From Companilactobacillus pabuli (lineage in GTDB: Bacteria; Bacillota; Bacilli; Lactobacillales; Lactobacillaceae), in NCBI RefSeq assembly GCF_014058425.1, contig NZ_CP049366.1:1488001-1552000 (forward strand): a stretch of 64,000 bases of DNA, given 5' to 3'. Positions 454 through 6,633 of this stretch are shown here, piece after piece. The notes under the pieces were generated by a model, which was not told where the DNA came from, ran no database searches, and was given only the letters and a program-made list of their open reading frames with translations. Position numbers and translations under genes: made by a program. Position 1 is the stretch's first letter. Every line of letters begins with the position of its first letter.

Positions 454-481
454 AAAGCGTGAATTTAATCACGCTTTTTTT
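452..481. terminator. bidirectional rho-independent terminator
   Basis: A 6-bp GC-containing stem (GCGTGA/TCACGC, 457-462 with 469-474) is extended by A/T pairs and flanked by an A-run on the left and a T-run on the right. It can therefore stop transcription from nnrD on the plus strand and from the flippase gene on the minus strand. The minus-strand gene's stop codon lies at its edge. Confidence 0.9.
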
Positions 482-2144
482 ATTTCATTCTCAAGATTTG
501 TCTGATACGATCAACTCTTGAACCAACAATCTTATCAGCCAAAGACGTCTTCAAGACTAAGTATCCGTAAATAACTCCACCTAATCCAGCTTCCAAAATC
601 AATGCTACTACACTGATAATTCGATCAGAATTTCCAACAAAGTGGAAAACTATCCAATTTACTAATAATACTGAAACAAACATTATCAAGGAGAATAAAA
701 TAATTCCACTGATTCTTCTCGAGATCCGACCGGTATTGAAAGGATAAATTGCATGCAGTTTTGCTAACATAAGCCAACAAACAACACCCATACCGATACT
801 TGTAGCCACTAACGGACCAAATTCGTGGAATAACCAAATCATTGGCAATTGCACAACTACCTTTACGATAAAACCATAAACGAAATACTTAATAGCCAAG
901 CGATTACGATATAACGCTTGTAAAACGGCTGACAAAACGGTGAACAATCCCAACAATATTGAAATAACAGATGAGAACTGCAACATCAAGACACCTAAAG
1001 CGTCATAACGATAGAACGTCGTCCATAATGGTTGGGCCACTGCATACATCCCTAATGATGCGGGAATCATAATGAAGAAGAACAATTCCAAAGTATTAGA
1101 AATTTGATTTTCGATTTTTTCTTTATTGCCCTTCGAATACAATCCAGATAGGATTGGTACCGCTGTAACGGCCATAGCGGTTGATAATGAAACAATGATC
1201 ATGATTAGTTTATTAGCTTGAAAACCAAACAATGAGTAGTAATTATCTAATTGTGCTCCACTTGCATTAACGAATAATCTCATAAATTGATTAAATGTTG
1301 ATTGATCATACAAGTTAAAAAATGTTATCCCTGCATCCAAGATAATGAATGGCAATGCTTGTTGGAAAATTTCGCGAGTAAAGTTATTTTCATTAACATT
1401 TGCAACAGGTTTACCATTACGAGACAAGCTTCTTAATCTTGGCAGTCGTTTTAAAATCGCTAAAATCAGAATAACAATCGCCACAGCAGCACCAATGAAA
1501 GCCGCAAAGGTCGATTGAACAACGGCATTAATATAGCTACCCTTACTTACTATCATGATCATATAAGTTGCTATCAACATATAAATAACACGGGCAATTT
1601 GCTCAATAAATTGTGAGATAGCGGACGGAGCCATATCCGAATATCCTTGTAAATAACCTCTCAAAATACTCAAAATAGGAATAACCAGCACGGCTACCGC
1701 TAATGATTTGATAACCGGAATACTTCTTGGATCGCCATCAGTAAACATAACTGCTAAGAGTGGCGCCCCAAAGAACATGATTGCCCCAAAAATGACCCCC
1801 ATAAAGGTCATGATTTTGAGACCATGTTTGAATAATTTATTTCCGGTTGCATATTGATCTAACGCATTATAATGTGAAATTTGTTTAGAAATTGCTCCAG
1901 GAATTCCTGCTGTTGAAACAATCAGGAATAAACTATAGATATTATATCCTTTTGCGAACAATGCATTAGCCGCTGGATAATCAGACCCCATCCAGGCCAT
2001 CCATGGGATAATGTATATTGCTCCCAAAATACGAGAAAAAATACTACCAGCTGTCATCCAAGCTGACCCTTTTAACATCGTATCTTGCGGAGATTCAGGG
2101 TTTAAAACTGGCATTACTTCTTCTTGGCTTTTATTTACGCCCAA
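480..2144 (-). CDS. murJ: MurJ/YtgP-type lipid II flippase (MOP superfamily)
   Basis: This is a polytopic membrane protein of about 554 residues with roughly 14 hydrophobic segments. It begins its membrane part with a segment like MLKGSAWMTAGSIFSRILGA, as in the Bacillus YtgP/MurJ branch of the MOP exporter family. That branch flips lipid-linked peptidoglycan precursor across the membrane. The longest frame opens at a GTG at 2156, but that codon lies inside the ribosome binding site AAGGTGGTG (2151-2159). A TTG at 2144, 6-8 bases after it, is the better start, and an ATG at 2114 is a second option. An extended -10 (TGCTATAAT) lies about 30 bases upstream. Other polysaccharide flippases of the same superfamily cannot be fully excluded. 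Confidence 0.85.
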   Translation of the reverse strand: MGVNKSQEEVMPVLNPESPQDTMLKGSAWMTAGSIFSRILGAIYIIPWMAWMGSDYPAANALFAKGYNIYSLFLIVSTAGIPGAISKQISHYNALDQYATGNKLFKHGLKIMTFMGVIFGAIMFFGAPLLAVMFTDGDPRSIPVIKSLAVAVLVIPILSILRGYLQGYSDMAPSAISQFIEQIARVIYMLIATYMIMIVSKGSYINAVVQSTFAAFIGAAVAIVILILAILKRLPRLRSLSRNGKPVANVNENNFTREIFQQALPFIILDAGITFFNLYDQSTFNQFMRLFVNASGAQLDNYYSLFGFQANKLIMIIVSLSTAMAVTAVPILSGLYSKGNKEKIENQISNTLELFFFIMIPASLGMYAVAQPLWTTFYRYDALGVLMLQFSSVISILLGLFTVLSAVLQALYRNRLAIKYFVYGFIVKVVVQLPMIWLFHEFGPLVATSIGMGVVCWLMLAKLHAIYPFNTGRISRRISGIILFSLIMFVSVLLVNWIVFHFVGNSDRIISVVALILEAGLGGVIYGYLVLKTSLADKIVGSRVDRIRQILRMK

Positions 2145-2175
2145 AACTTGCACCACCTTAAAAACTATCCATTTA

Positions 2176-2184: not shown

Positions 2185-2471
2185 AAGTTCTTATCCTAAA
2201 AATTTTAAATTACTCTTAAATTACGCAAAAAGCAAATTAATTTATAAAAGAACCGCTAATTTTACAGAACGAATAAATTGTAAAGCTTTTTTGAGATTAA
2301 TTCATGTTAGAATGAATTTGTTGTTTCGGGGATAAGCCATTTTAATACAACTCACCCACAGTTTCTGCATCATGCAATTATTCATAGCAATCAAACAAAT
2401 TTTTCATTATTTTTATCATCTCAGACAAGATAATAAAGAGCTTACCTCTTCGTTGCAACAAAAAAAGGTTT
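2185..2471. other. long A+T-rich intergenic region between IS element and flippase gene
   Basis: I find no convincing protein gene here. On the minus strand there is a promoter-like pair, TTGCAA (2453-2458) and TATTAT (2430-2435) with a 17-bp spacer. It is followed by a tiny frame of nine codons (ATG near 2408, MKNLFDCYE) without a clear ribosome binding site. The 2460-2471 end is the U-tract half of the leuS terminator, left behind by the IS insertion. The rest may be a long leader of the flippase gene or an unrecognised RNA. Confidence 0.4.
2430..2458 (-). promoter_or_regulatory. putative sigma-A type promoter
   Basis: TTGCAA, 17-bp spacer, TATTAT on the minus strand, just past the old leuS terminator. 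It would start transcripts near 2423 running towards the flippase gene about 280 bases away. This is a match by eye only. Confidence 0.4.
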
Positions 2472-2496
2472 TGAAGTGAACCCCATTAATTGGAGT
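2472..2496 (+). repeat. left inverted repeat of the IS3-family element
   Basis: Begins TGAAGTGAACCCC and matches the reverse complement of 3885-3909 at 22 of 25 positions. The 5'-TG terminal dinucleotide is typical of IS3-family ends. Confidence 0.9.
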
Positions 2497-2501
2497 TTAT
2501 T

Positions 2502-3335
2502 TTAAGCAATAAGTTGGTCGGAAAGATTTCGGTATTCTACCGGGGTCTTTCCGGCCAATTTTGCTTTTATTCGTTTATTGTTGTAGTAGTAGATATATTT
2601 GGATATTTCCTCTTTCAAATGTTCATATGAACTGTACTCGTTGTTATGTACAGTTCCTACTTTTAAAATGTGAAAGAAACTTTCCATTATCGCATTATCC
2701 AAGCATGTTGCTTTGCGACTCATGCTTTGGATAATGCGATTTTTCTTTAGTCTAGATACATACTCATAGTTTTGATACTGAAATCCTTGATCAGAATGTA
2801 CCGTCATTCGATAAGGCAGTTCTGGTAATCTCTCAATCAACGCATCCAATGTATCTGTAACGAATTCGACGTTAGGATGAAGACTTATATTCCAACTGAT
2901 GACCTCATCACTGTACATATCCATGAATGCCGTAAAATATGCTCTTTCTGATGTGGTCCCATTACCCCAGCGAAGTTCAGTAACATCGGTAGTGATCTTC
3001 TGAAAGGGTCTATCGGTAATAAACCTTCTGTTTAGTTTGTTCTTGGCTCTTTTGCCAACATTTCCTTTATAAGAATTATATTTTCTAGTTTTTCTATCAA
3101 AGGCATGACAAAGGAGTCCGTGTTTGTTCATTATTTTAAGAACTAATTTATGATTGGCCTTGATCCCACGGTTATGAAGTTCCATTGTTACACTGCGATA
3201 TCCATAGTCTTTATACTCTGTACGAATTGATTTGATTTCAGACACTAGCTCTTCTGGATATGACTTGTAAGAATGGCTCTGTGAATAATGGTAACTACTA
3301 CTGGACATGTTTACGACTTCTAATATGATTGCCAA
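2502..3335 (-). CDS. IS3-family transposase OrfB (DDE integrase core)
   Basis: This is the catalytic part of the transposase, with an rve-type integrase core. Asp117 (TTDVTEL), Asp182 (HSDQGFQYQ) and Glu218 (DNAIMESFF) give the DD(35)E triad with exactly 35 residues between the last two. An N-terminal HTH_21-like stretch precedes the core. The reading frame stays open upstream past the annotated start into orfA, reading EKLSNQEKAQIINELRQEF. The active enzyme is therefore most likely an OrfAB fusion made by -1 frameshifting, and the separate start at 3335 is nominal. No inactivating change is seen. Confidence 0.92.
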   Translation of the reverse strand: MAIILEVVNMSSSSYHYSQSHSYKSYPEELVSEIKSIRTEYKDYGYRSVTMELHNRGIKANHKLVLKIMNKHGLLCHAFDRKTRKYNSYKGNVGKRAKNKLNRRFITDRPFQKITTDVTELRWGNGTTSERAYFTAFMDMYSDEVISWNISLHPNVEFVTDTLDALIERLPELPYRMTVHSDQGFQYQNYEYVSRLKKNRIIQSMSRKATCLDNAIMESFFHILKVGTVHNNEYSSYEHLKEEISKYIYYYNNKRIKAKLAGKTPVEYRNLSDQLIA

Positions 3336-3367
3336 GGGTTCGTTGAATTCTTGCCTTAACTCATTTA

Positions 3368-3859
3368 TTATTTGTGCTTTTTCTTGATTTGAGAGTTTTT
3401 CTTCTTCTGAGTTAAGGCATGCAATTTTTCCAAGTAAGCTACCCGTATCTTAAGCCGACGATTCTCTTCTTCTAAATGTTTAAGTTCTTCTGCCGTACGT
3501 GGTTTTTTATCAGTCATTTTCCCAGACCGCCTATCATTTGGTTTTAGGCGACCCGATTCAAGATCTCGTTCCCATTGCCAGATTGTCGTAGGATTACGGA
3601 TCTTATATCTTTTAGCAGTTACTGGATATGATGCTCTATGATCGACTCGCCAAGTTATTATTTTGATTTTAAACGAATAATCATAGAAAGTCTTTGAGTA
3701 ATTGTTGGTGAGCCCTTCAACTCCAAATTCTTTGAACAAACGTACCCAATGATAAATAGTTGCGGAACCTTTGATACCGTACTTTCTAGTGATAGACGTG
3801 TAGCTTTTGCCTGAAAGATAATCAAGAACTACCTTAATTTTAATTTCTTTTGAAAACAT
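3368..3859 (-). CDS. IS3-family transposase OrfA (DNA-binding)
   Basis: This 163-residue protein has two helix-turn-helix units (about residues 18-47 and 76-104, each with a W in the recognition helix). A leucine-zipper-like segment follows (about 122-150, LKHLEEENRRLKIRVAYLEK). That is the typical OrfA of the IS150 group, which binds the IS ends and forms the N-terminus of the OrfAB transposase. It starts 26 bases inside the right inverted repeat. It lies on the same strand as leuS and directly downstream of it, so read-through from leuS could express it. Confidence 0.92.
   Translation of the reverse strand: MFSKEIKIKVVLDYLSGKSYTSITRKYGIKGSATIYHWVRLFKEFGVEGLTNNYSKTFYDYSFKIKIITWRVDHRASYPVTAKRYKIRNPTTIWQWERDLESGRLKPNDRRSGKMTDKKPRTAEELKHLEEENRRLKIRVAYLEKLHALTQKKKNSQIKKKHK
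3377..3401 (-). other. probable -1 programmed frameshift region of the IS
   Basis: Before the orfA stop, two A-rich slip sites are read in the orfA frame: G AAA AAC (3395-3401) and G AAA AAG (3377-3383). The orfB frame is open across both. A -1 slip here would join LEKLHALTQK to the orfB-frame sequence, giving a normal OrfAB. Which of the two sites is used cannot be told. Confidence 0.6.
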
Positions 3860-3884
3860 AAAAAGAACCTCATAAGTTTGGACT

Positions 3885-3909
3885 ACTCCAACTTATGGGG
3901 TTCAGTTCA
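3885..3909 (-). repeat. right inverted repeat of the IS3-family element
   Basis: Read on the minus strand it begins TGAACTGAACCCC; it pairs with 2472-2496. The right flank is TTT, matching the left flank. Confidence 0.9.
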
Positions 3910-3937
3910 TTTCGGAAAATCCGAAGCCTTTTTTTTT
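3910..3937 (-). terminator. leuS terminator split by the IS insertion
   Basis: After the leuS stop the minus strand reads an A-run, then GGCTTCGGA, TTT, TCCGAAA and then the IS end. The missing part, CC followed by seven T, lies beyond the other IS end at 2460-2468. Before insertion this was a 9-bp stem with a T-tract. Now a shortened 7-bp hairpin remains without its T-tract, so leuS termination should be weakened. Confidence 0.8.
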
Positions 3938-3940
3938 GTC

Positions 3941-6355
3941 TTATTTAACTACAATATTAACAATCTTGTTAGGAATGACGATCACTTTGACGATATTCTT
4001 ACCATCAATGAATTTTTGAACCTTTTCATCATTTCTAGCTAATTCTTCTAATTTAGCTTTACCAGTGTCAGTAGCAACCTCTAATTTATCACGAAGTTTA
4101 CCATTAACTTGTACGATAATTTCAACTGTATCAGAAACCAATTTGCTTTCATCATAAGTTGGCCACTTAGCATATGAGATTGATTCATCATGACCAAACT
4201 TGCTCCACAATTCTTCCATCATATGTGGTGCAATTGGAGCTAACAATTGAACCAGACCTTCAGCATAAGCCTTTGGCATTGTATCAACCTTATGAGCTTC
4301 ATTGACGAAGACCATCATTTGTGAAATGGCAGTATTGAAGTGCAAAGCATCGAAGTCTTCAGTTACTTTCTTAACTGTTTCATTGTAAACTTTATCCAAT
4401 TTACCATCGTTCGTATCAGTCAAGAAACCTTCACGAATTGTGCTGTAGTCATCATCATTGATGAACAAGTTCCAAACACGATCCAAGAACTTAGCTGAAC
4501 CGGACAAACCATTTTCTGACCAAGCGATTGAAGCATCCAAAGGACCCATGAACATTTCATAAGTTCTCAAAGTATCAGCGCCGTAAGATTCAACAACATC
4601 ATCAGGGTTAACAACGTTACCCTTTGATTTAGACATCTTTTCGTGACCTTTACCGAGGATCATACCTTGGTTGAATAGCTTTTGGAATGGTTCCTTAGTT
4701 GGTACGACACCCAAGTCATACAATACCTTGTGCCAGAATCTTGCATACAACAAGTGAAGTACGGCGTGTTCTGCACCACCAATATATAGATCAACTGGCA
4801 ACCACTTCTTCAACAAGTCATAGTCGGCAAGTTTTTCATCATTATGTGGATCGATGTATCTCAAGTAGTACCATGATGAACCAGCCCATTGTGGCATTGT
4901 ATTAGTTTCACGACGACCTTTACGACCGTTTTTATCAACTACATTGACCCAATCTGTTAAGTTAGCTAATGGACTTTCACCCGTTCCTGAAGGTTTAATA
5001 TTTGAATCTTCAGGAAGTTTCAATGGCAATTCGTCTTCTGGAACTAGTGAAGTTGTACCGTCTTCCCAGTGAATGATAGGAATTGGTTCACCCCAGTATC
5101 TTTGACGAGAGAAGACCCAATCACGAAGACGATAGTTAACTTTCTTTTCACCATAACCTTTGTCTTCAAGGTATTCAACGGCACGATTGATAGCATCTTC
5201 TTTGTTCAAGCCATCCAAGAAATCAGAATTGATATGCTTACCGTCACCAGTAATAGCACCATCTTCAAGGTTTCCTTCAATAACTTGTGTCATTGGTAAG
5301 TCAAATTTCTTAGCAAAGGCGAAATCACGATCGTCATGAGCAGGAACAGCCATAACAGCACCTGTACCATAAGTAACTAAGACATAATCAGAAATCCAAA
5401 TAGGAATTCTCTTGCCGTTTACAGGGTTAATAGCATATGCACCAGTGAAGACACCAGTCTTTTCATCGTTCAAATCAGTTCTATCAAGATCTGACTTGTG
5501 AGAAACTTCTTCCTTGTAAGCTTCAACAGCAGACTTTTGTTCAGGCGTTGTAATCTTATCAACTAACTTGTGTTCTGGAGCCAAAGTCATGTACTCAACA
5601 CCAAAAATTGTATCAGGACGAGTTGTAAAGACGTTAACTGAATCATCTGAGTCAGCTATTTGGAAAGTAATCTGTGCTCCGACTGAACGGCCAATCCAGT
5701 TTCTTTGCATTTCCTTGATACTTTCTGGCCAATCAATATCATCAAGGTCATCCAACAATCTGTCAGCATAAGCTGTGATTTTCAACATCCATTGACGCAT
5801 AGGCTTTCTAACAACTGGGAAACCACCACGTTCTGTTTTACCATCGATGATTTCTTCGTTAGCAACAACTGTACCTAAATCTGGTGACCAGTTAACCAAA
5901 GTTTCTGATTCGTAGGCCAAACCTTTTTTGTACATTTGTTCAAAAATCCATTGAGTCCACTTATAGAATTTAGGATCAGTTGTTTGAACTTCACGGTTCC
6001 AATCATATGAAAAACCTAATGAATTAATTTGACGTTTGAAGTTTTGAATGTTCTTTTCAGTGAAATCAGCTGGATTATGACCAGTATTAATAGCATATTG
6101 TTCAGCTGGCAACCCGAAAGCGTCAAAGCCCATTGGATGCAAAACATTGTATCCTTGAGCGCGCTTCATTCTAGCGATGATATCAGTAGCTGTGTATCCT
6201 TCTGGATGTCCAACGTGAAGCCCTTGACCTGATGGATATGGGAACATGTCCAAAGCATAAAAGTTCTTCTTATTTGGATCTTCAGTAGTTCTGAAAGTAT
6301 CATGTTCCTTCCAGTACTTTTGCCATTTTTTCTCGACGGTGTTGTGATTGTACAT
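3941..6355 (-). CDS. leuS: leucyl-tRNA synthetase
   Basis: Cytoplasmic class I synthetase that charges tRNA-Leu. It is 804 residues, the normal bacterial length. The HIGH-type motif is HVGH (residues 47-50, within [12 protein letters not shown]). The KMSKS loop is at about residue 572 ([10 protein letters not shown]), with the CP1 editing insertion between them and the anticodon-binding and C-terminal domains complete. The gene is preceded by a leucine T-box leader and a good ribosome binding site (AGGAGG). Its terminator has been split by the IS downstream. Confidence 0.98.
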
Positions 6356-6361
6356 ATTTTT

Positions 6362-6598
6362 CCTCCTATAAAAAAAATCCTATGACTATATAAATATAAT
6401 CATAGGACGAATTATCGCGTTACCACCTAAGTTCCACACTCTCGTGCGACTCTCGAAATCCTTAACGAGGATTAACCGTAGTCACTTACTAAAAGTTCGG
6501 CAACTATTATCAGTGGACGAGTTCGAAAATAAGAATCTACGCATTCACATCCCCATACGCTTTCTGAAAAGTATTCTTATAATCTACTACTTCCGTTG
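6362..6598 (-). promoter_or_regulatory. T-box riboswitch, tRNA-Leu specific
   Basis: The leader of leuS carries the conserved T-box core AGGTGGTAACGCG (about 6417-6429). It is followed by a terminator hairpin (CCTATGAT...AGTCATAGG) with an eight-T tract ending just before the ribosome binding site. Upstream, a stem I with ATAAGAAT/ATTCTTAT and a GAACTC motif is visible. CTC at 6519-6521 is the likely specifier codon for Leu, though CTT at 6531-6533 cannot be excluded. In this class, uncharged tRNA-Leu stabilises the antiterminator and turns leuS on. Confidence 0.92.
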
Positions 6599-6604
6599 CT
6601 TTAT

Positions 6605-6633
6605 ATCTTATACCAATAATGTTTGTCCGACAA
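6605..6633 (-). promoter_or_regulatory. promoter for the leuS T-box transcript
   Basis: TTGTCG (6628-6633), 17-bp spacer, TAAGAT (6605-6610) on the minus strand. The -10 overlaps the stop codon of the glucosaminidase gene, so the leuS promoter is embedded in the 3' end of its neighbour. Confidence 0.6.

Follow-up and report, generated by a model that had tools for sequence, protein, structure and literature searches.

We describe here an insertion sequence (IS) of the IS3 family that lies inside the transcription terminator of leuS, the leucyl-tRNA synthetase gene of Companilactobacillus pabuli, in a 64,000-nucleotide stretch of its chromosome (the ‘window’; NZ_CP049366.1, positions 1,488,001 to 1,552,000, forward strand). 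Synthesising the comparisons set out below, we propose that the transposase of the clade to which this element belongs prefers intrinsic terminators as landing sites, and that the hairpins carried at both ends of the element face inwards and serve to silence and/or insulate it; judged from sequence, we would put the probability of this reading at about four in five.

Insertion into the leuS terminator

Within the window, the element occupies positions 2472-3909 (1438 bp, minus strand), runs from TGAAGTGAACCCC to GGGGTTCAGTTCA with terminal inverted repeats that match at 22 of 25 positions, and has a TTT target-site duplication on both sides (2469-2471 and 3910-3912). Excising it regenerates, in the sense of leuS, GGCTTCGGA-TTT-TCCGAAACC and then T7 (2460-2466) behind leuS: the A-tract, stem and T-tract of a hairpin terminator. 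An earlier note on this DNA had claimed that the element splits the terminator stem and sets the T-tract apart, and this is what we find; the larger part (A-tract, 5' arm, loop and the loop-side portion of the 3' arm) sits at 3913-3937 and the base (CC followed by T7) at 2460-2468, both on the minus strand. The stem of nine base pairs given in that note does have nine positions, of which eight are real pairs: position three is C.A, a mismatch, in the RNA of leuS, and a G.T wobble on the opposite strand. Despite the insertion, a hairpin with a T-tract is still readable on the plus strand at 3910-3926.

Close relatives free of the insertion retain the terminator. An empty site that is 94.7% identical (L342) has GGCTTCGGATTATTCCGAAACCTTTTTTT directly behind leuS and differs in the loop. 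Among 30 loci examined out of 36 genomes having the leuS end, 26 have a mechanically called hairpin behind leuS (score of at least 20, T-rich at its end); one of these is our own copy (L341), where the called hairpin sits in the end of the IS, which leaves 25 of 29 relatives. Three of the called loci (L366-L368) are unlike classical terminators, and two of the four uncalled ones (L348, L354) do look like them. A chance hairpin at leuS is ruled out by these insertion-free relatives together with the other copies of the element.

Preference for terminator hairpins across the family

The 2.5 Mb host genome holds five copies of the element, 98-100% identical and one of them interrupted, and all five rejoin into hairpins with A-tract, stem and T-tract; four give stem scores of 25.5-42, and the interrupted copy (L038) was judged by eye. 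In that copy (G000:C1:206865-212303) the interrupting element is of the ISL3 family, which has eight matches in the genome, and it lies 11 bp from the end. A second IS3-family element of the same genome, 38% identical (L291, G000:C1:141271-144768), likewise sits in a terminator-like hairpin.

To move beyond the one genome, we collected relatives from the Lactobacillaceae, where matches at E 1e-60 or better occur in 57 of 397 genomes (our own included). There were 104 places outside the own genome, of which 100 were taken (those in G303:C33, G276:C15 and G372:C57, and one in G372:C30, were left out); with six own or near loci these made 106, and 104 once two without ends (L218, L246) had been set aside. 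A further 17 were removed, 13 for weak repeats (L038 among them), one for a short flank and three for duplicate flanks, and from the resulting 87 another 18 fell away because an exact duplication of 3 or 4 bp was missing or the ends were wrong. Ends were fixed from inverted repeats and exact duplication, ignoring hairpins, and 69 distinct sites were kept; of 85 sites whose ends could be trusted, these 69 have an exact duplication (3 bp in 60, 4 bp in nine).

A stem score of at least 20 was reached by 50 of the 69 rejoined sites, as against 39/345 when right flanks were swapped between sites and 47/823 at offset positions, 60-400 bp away within the same flanks; at a score of at least 24 the corresponding figures were 49/69, 10/345 and 25/823 (Mann-Whitney on stem scores, p 2e-17 against swapped flanks and 2e-23 against offset positions). 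Predicted folding energy gave a similar picture, with 53/69 sites at or below -12 kcal/mol compared with 32/345 and 78/823. Insertions of IS30-family elements in four Lactobacillaceae genomes served as a further control, and none of 20 was in a hairpin (Fisher p 2e-9); here the ends come from comparing copies with one another, with errors of a few bases possible, and 17 of 20 show a 2-4-bp duplication. With copies collected and flanks rejoined, and with swapped flanks, offset positions and IS30 sites far below, the targeting preference that the earlier note had thought plausible is supported.

Distant Bacillota relatives (33-47% identical) point the same way, with 14 of 25 sites scoring at least 24, a figure that stands without a control set; the site in Paraclostridium ghonii (L050) is one example. 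Here, 41 of 68 loci had been dropped, mostly for want of an exact duplication, and 16 of the 27 kept score at least 24; two were left out of the count of 25, namely L047 (Companilactobacillus versmoldensis DSM 14857; the same insertion as L040) and L052, from Weissella cibaria, which is 72% identical and another case of a terminator hairpin. In G654 a single element accounts for three of the 25, each time at another site, and there are further elements that recur. Several of the dropped loci look like terminators by eye (L051, L098, L272, L290); L294, in the distant set, has a stem without a T-tract.

One-sided contig ends in Weissella (L048, L053, L066-L081) add a further observation. A recognisable element end is present at 17 of these 18 loci, and in 15 of the 17 a run of at least four T lies within 25 nt, nine times at 5-11 nt and six times at 18-25 nt; this spacing, which has no control set behind it, would fit insertion into either of two arms, as predicted. 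In Weissella thailandensis JCM 10695 (L053, L066-L081), many contigs break inside a relative that is 71-76% identical, which suggests a large copy number.

Hairpins at the ends of the element

The element carries two reading frames, orfA (3368-3859) and orfB (2502-3335), both on the minus strand, and a hairpin is found at the outer end of each. At the orfB end, an inward-facing, terminator-like hairpin lies at 2511-2561 on the plus strand, antisense to the transposase genes; most of it falls within the final codons of orfB, and TGCTTTTATT comes after it. Among 36 distinct elements (first 120 nt at most 90% alike), this hairpin is present in 34, with 12-22 bp and a score of at least 27.5 (95th percentile of background, 21), and the two exceptions (L164, L196) retain its outer stem by eye. 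It beats all 60 synonymous-codon shuffles in 32 of 35 elements (L175 having been left out), and for this reason it is not explained by the encoded protein; the three that fail are L164, L196 and L233, in the last of which the hairpin lies nearer the element end. The paired positions also covary: both sides of a pair have changed in 140 cells, where shuffles give 46.6, with 89% paired. Both end hairpins are seen in 27/27 elements of the distant set, a count without shuffle control.

It is conceivable that the orfB-end hairpin serves to stabilise or fold the transposase mRNA and is not an antisense terminator, as it is also transcribed in sense and palindromes can protect the 3' ends of mRNAs. 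Set against this, the window scan calls the hairpin terminator-like on the plus (antisense) strand only, and it is on the antisense strand that a T-rich stretch follows in relatives, partly owing to lysine codons; on balance, we find a role confined to the message rather unlikely.

At the other end, a hairpin reading from the outside in (3865-3903, minus strand) pairs the terminal repeat with the region of the likely orfA ribosome-binding site (GAGG, identified by eye), and is followed by TTTTT at 3860-3864 and the orfA ATG at 3857-3859. Its predicted fold has an energy of -20.9 kcal/mol (z -5.0), and a corresponding hairpin is predicted in 36/36 distinct elements. Compensatory change is evident at one pair (AU 14, UA 12, GC 8, CG 1), and 59 cells show change on the two sides of a pair, compared with 18.6 for shuffles. 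Because a simple terminator scan of the window makes no call at this position, the safer reading of the predicted structure is that it would hide the ribosome-binding site of orfA.

The earlier note had taken the insertion to be harmful to termination, with read-through from leuS feeding the transposase genes and perhaps affecting the murJ-type gene downstream. The T-tract is indeed set apart from its stem; orfA and orfB do read in the direction of leuS, as that note had stated, and the murJ-type gene is on the same (minus) strand; and the missing scan call at the IS end hairpin would suit such a view. However, a conserved hairpin covers the orfA start with T5 directly behind it, so an incoming transcript would meet this hairpin at once, the reverse of leuS read-through feeding the transposase: the RNA is predicted to fold into the structure over the ribosome-binding site and then to run into five U. 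Nor does the family show a bias towards co-orientation (see below). An effect on the MurJ/polysaccharide-flippase-type gene itself (480-2156, minus strand) is not implied, as a promoter-like TTGCAA-17-TATTAT remains between the IS and this gene (2430-2458, minus strand; a consensus match only) and also occurs in L342-L344, although matches of this kind are about as frequent as chance would give (8 found against 5.7 expected). We therefore hold this account to be improbable. The gene whose terminator is affected, leuS (3941-6355, minus strand), is preceded by a T-box leader (6400-6609, minus strand; RF00230, 101 bits).

Geometry of insertion

For 49 of the 50 hairpin sites a definable tract allowed distances to be counted; going inwards from the stem base, one reaches the outer edge of the duplication after 2-7 bp in 41 of them (1-8 bp in 43). 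Both arms of the stem are used (28 and 22 of the 50 sites). A-rich and T-rich tracts flank the duplication, 5-9 nt ahead of it and some 19-27 nt behind it. There is no consensus at the duplication itself (0.04-0.07 bits over 42 three-bp sites), on which ground we reject a sequence-specific target. A gene 3' end lies within 150 nt at 45/50 hairpin sites, 23 of them between convergent gene ends. At the 22 sites that serve one gene only, the two arms, as read in the RNA, are used 11 times each, and the IS is co-oriented with the terminated gene in 11 and opposed in 11; co-orientation, although present at leuS, is thereby ruled out as a feature of the family. From this even use of arms and orientations, we infer that the feature recognised is probably the DNA palindrome, rather than a passing RNA polymerase or its RNA.

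A transcription-coupled mode, with the RNA hairpin or a polymerase that pauses at or leaves the terminator as the attractant for the transposase, would also bring elements to terminators, and group IIC introns target these as well (PMC3522654). Yet the lack of any polarity at the one-gene sites speaks against it, as does the enrichment of far-side A-tracts (44/49 targets against 13/22 window terminators, p 0.007, in sets called by different rules), and we regard such a mode as very unlikely. The same enrichment does no more than suggest a preference for two-way terminators. Least probable of all is survivorship, whereby insertion is wide and copies persist at dispensable, gene-free 3' ends where terminators occur: the nearness of 45/50 sites to gene ends and the selection against gene disruption that is expected in general would suit it, but it does not account for a duplication that starts 2-7 bp in from the base of the stem (41/49), and neither the far lower scores of same-flank positions 60-400 bp off (47/823) nor the 0/20 of IS30 copies in hairpins sits well with it.

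Gene content and family assignment

The product of orfB (277 aa, from an open frame of 315 aa) combines HTH_21 with an rve integrase core, with Pfam matches to rve, rve_2 and HTH_21, and is classed as IS3 family transposase by NCBIfam (NF033516: 251.7 bits, cut-off 160). That of orfA (163 aa) has the helix-turn-helix domains HTH_28 and HTH_Tnp_1, and alone scores 45.9 against the same model, below cut-off. An orfA with a helix-turn-helix and an orfB with an rve (DDE) core, along with TG...CA inverted repeats (TGAACTGAACCCC/TGAAGTGAACCCC) and a short TTT duplication, place the element in the IS3 family. From layout and ends it resembles IS150, and we regard it as a member of a broad Bacillota clade of the IS3 family with an IS150-like layout.

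IS3-family elements make a transframe OrfAB through frameshifting. Here the orfB frame, read upstream, stays open for 315 aa in all and runs into orfA; in this overlap there are A5C and A5G runs, and no A6 heptamer was found there. A 9-bp inverted repeat, CCTTAACTC/GAGTTAAGG, encloses the runs (window 3360-3412, minus strand), an arrangement that is a possible recoding signal. In several relatives (L158, L162, L163, L168, L193, L207, L212-L216) one end or both begin with TA (TAAAGTGAACCCC or TACAGTGAACCCC) and not with TG. A promoter formed from joined circle ends was considered and set aside, the match being weak and made by eye only.

Discussion

A number of observations count against a general preference for terminators coupled with insulating ends, and are gathered here. 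First, 19/69 sites score below 20; by eye, six of these are imperfect terminators (L155, L161, L184, L186, L193, L207), five are not terminators (L163, L190, L196, L204, L206) and eight are ambiguous. Under a looser rule (score of at least 14, six pairs, A-/T-tract), the contrast with swapped flanks narrows to 51/69 against 129/345 (62/823 at offset positions), because each half of a flank carries a tract of its own. An ISL3/IS256 control, in which 12 of 45 loci were usable, gave 4/12 sites scoring at least 20 and 3/12 at least 24 (2/10 at 20 or above in an earlier version under other end criteria), and a mild hairpin preference of ISL3 is possible; IS30 is the better control, with many ISL3 ends being unfixable. 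For the 5' hairpin there is no terminator call, as stated above; the weakest example (L040) reaches only -13.3 kcal/mol (z -1.9); and two covariation measures hardly exceed shuffles, namely doubly changed pairs (6 against 4.7, with 60/500 shuffles as high) and further pair types (20 against 17.0, with 19/500 as high). Behind the antisense hairpin, certain elements (L230) have a weak T-rich stretch, and lysine-rich RIKTKL residues dictate part of this stretch. Lastly, inward hairpins are not tied to terminator targeting, since ISL3 elements carry them: in nine other elements, the antisense hairpin was found in four of ISL3 (scores 23-38.5) and in none of four IS30 and one IS256 (10.5-18.5), and so to take inward hairpins as an exclusive mark of terminator targeting would be too strong. 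The ISL3-family elements with inward-facing end hairpins are L313, L319, L322 and L336.

Taking these points into account, we still favour terminator targeting by the transposase, and propose a model for how it might work. The transposase would attack palindromic DNA, as a hairpin or a cruciform, perhaps together with the flanking A/T tracts; IS3-family transposases act on double-stranded circles. Insertion would break the terminator and so favour transcripts that run into the element, whereupon the end hairpins would stop or silence incoming transcripts from either side and keep transposase low. These hairpins may also partly replace the lost terminator for the host transcript, such that terminator sites would be cheap for the host. 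A stronger version casts the elements as ‘terminator swappers’, which recognise and split a (mostly two-way) terminator palindrome and bring in two inward terminators, one built from the terminal repeat and the other encoded by synonymous codon choice in the transposase gene, with the result that neighbouring host genes stay terminated whilst the element stays silent; this we offer tentatively, as a picture that stands at somewhat less than even odds.

Such a model would supply a clear landing rule for a widespread group of IS (terminator stems, with no sequence consensus), one that predicts where in a genome these elements should lie and suggests why the harm they do is small. It would also provide a tractable system for the reading of palindromes by a DDE transposase, and the conserved inward hairpins, one of them kept through synonymous codon choice, offer a case in which selection for the transcriptional insulation of a mobile element can be put to the test.

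Comparison with known systems

Among named elements, ISWco1, from annotated copies on Apilactobacillus plasmids, has ~66% nucleotide identity over 96% of the leuS element; we know of no target preference for it, papers not having been searched by its name. Terminator targeting by IS150-like elements was not found in searches of an open-access library, and may be described in subscription papers, ISfinder or TnPedia.

The IS1447 subgroup of Clostridium thermocellum (Firmicutes), formerly annotated as the IS150 subgroup, shares with the clade its IS3-family membership and its 3-4-bp duplications, and has 5'-TA ends, as do those clade members that end in TAAAGTGAACCCC; transcriptional slippage at an A9 run and one insertion in tdk are reported for it, and the portions of that paper examined do not describe terminators as targets (PMC6211511). 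IS1397 and ISKpn1 are likewise IS3-family elements whose transposase directs insertion into palindromes, but their targets are the repetitive extragenic palindromic (REP) sequences of enterobacteria and not terminators of unrelated sequence (PMC1525189). Group IIC (bacterial class C) introns do target intrinsic terminators; they differ in being retroelements that insert downstream of the hairpin and use a short sequence motif too (PMC3522654), whereas the clade inserts inside the stem, in both arms and both orientations.

In terms of self-silencing, a parallel is IS200, in which one stem-loop ends impinging transcripts and another occludes a ribosome-binding site (PMC3196728). IS200 is of a different family, and in the clade it is largely transposase codons that form the antisense hairpin, whilst the other hairpin pairs the terminal repeat with the leader. 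ISPpu9, which sits in REP sequences, is also thought to hide its ribosome-binding site within a leader structure (PMC8450116).

A parallel in target choice is IS1272/TnSha1, of the IS1182 family in staphylococci, which inserts in hairpins by recognising structure and not sequence; five of its seven first targets were gene terminators by RNA-seq, and both orientations were seen at one target (PMC4923244). The leuS-element clade resembles it in taking terminator hairpins of unrelated sequence as targets (50/69) and in using both orientations. The two differ in transposase family and in the outcome of insertion: on insertion, IS1272/TnSha1 removes a portion of the stem-loop without duplicating its target (PMC4923244), whereas the clade leaves an exact 3-4-bp duplication, and nothing of the terminator is lost.

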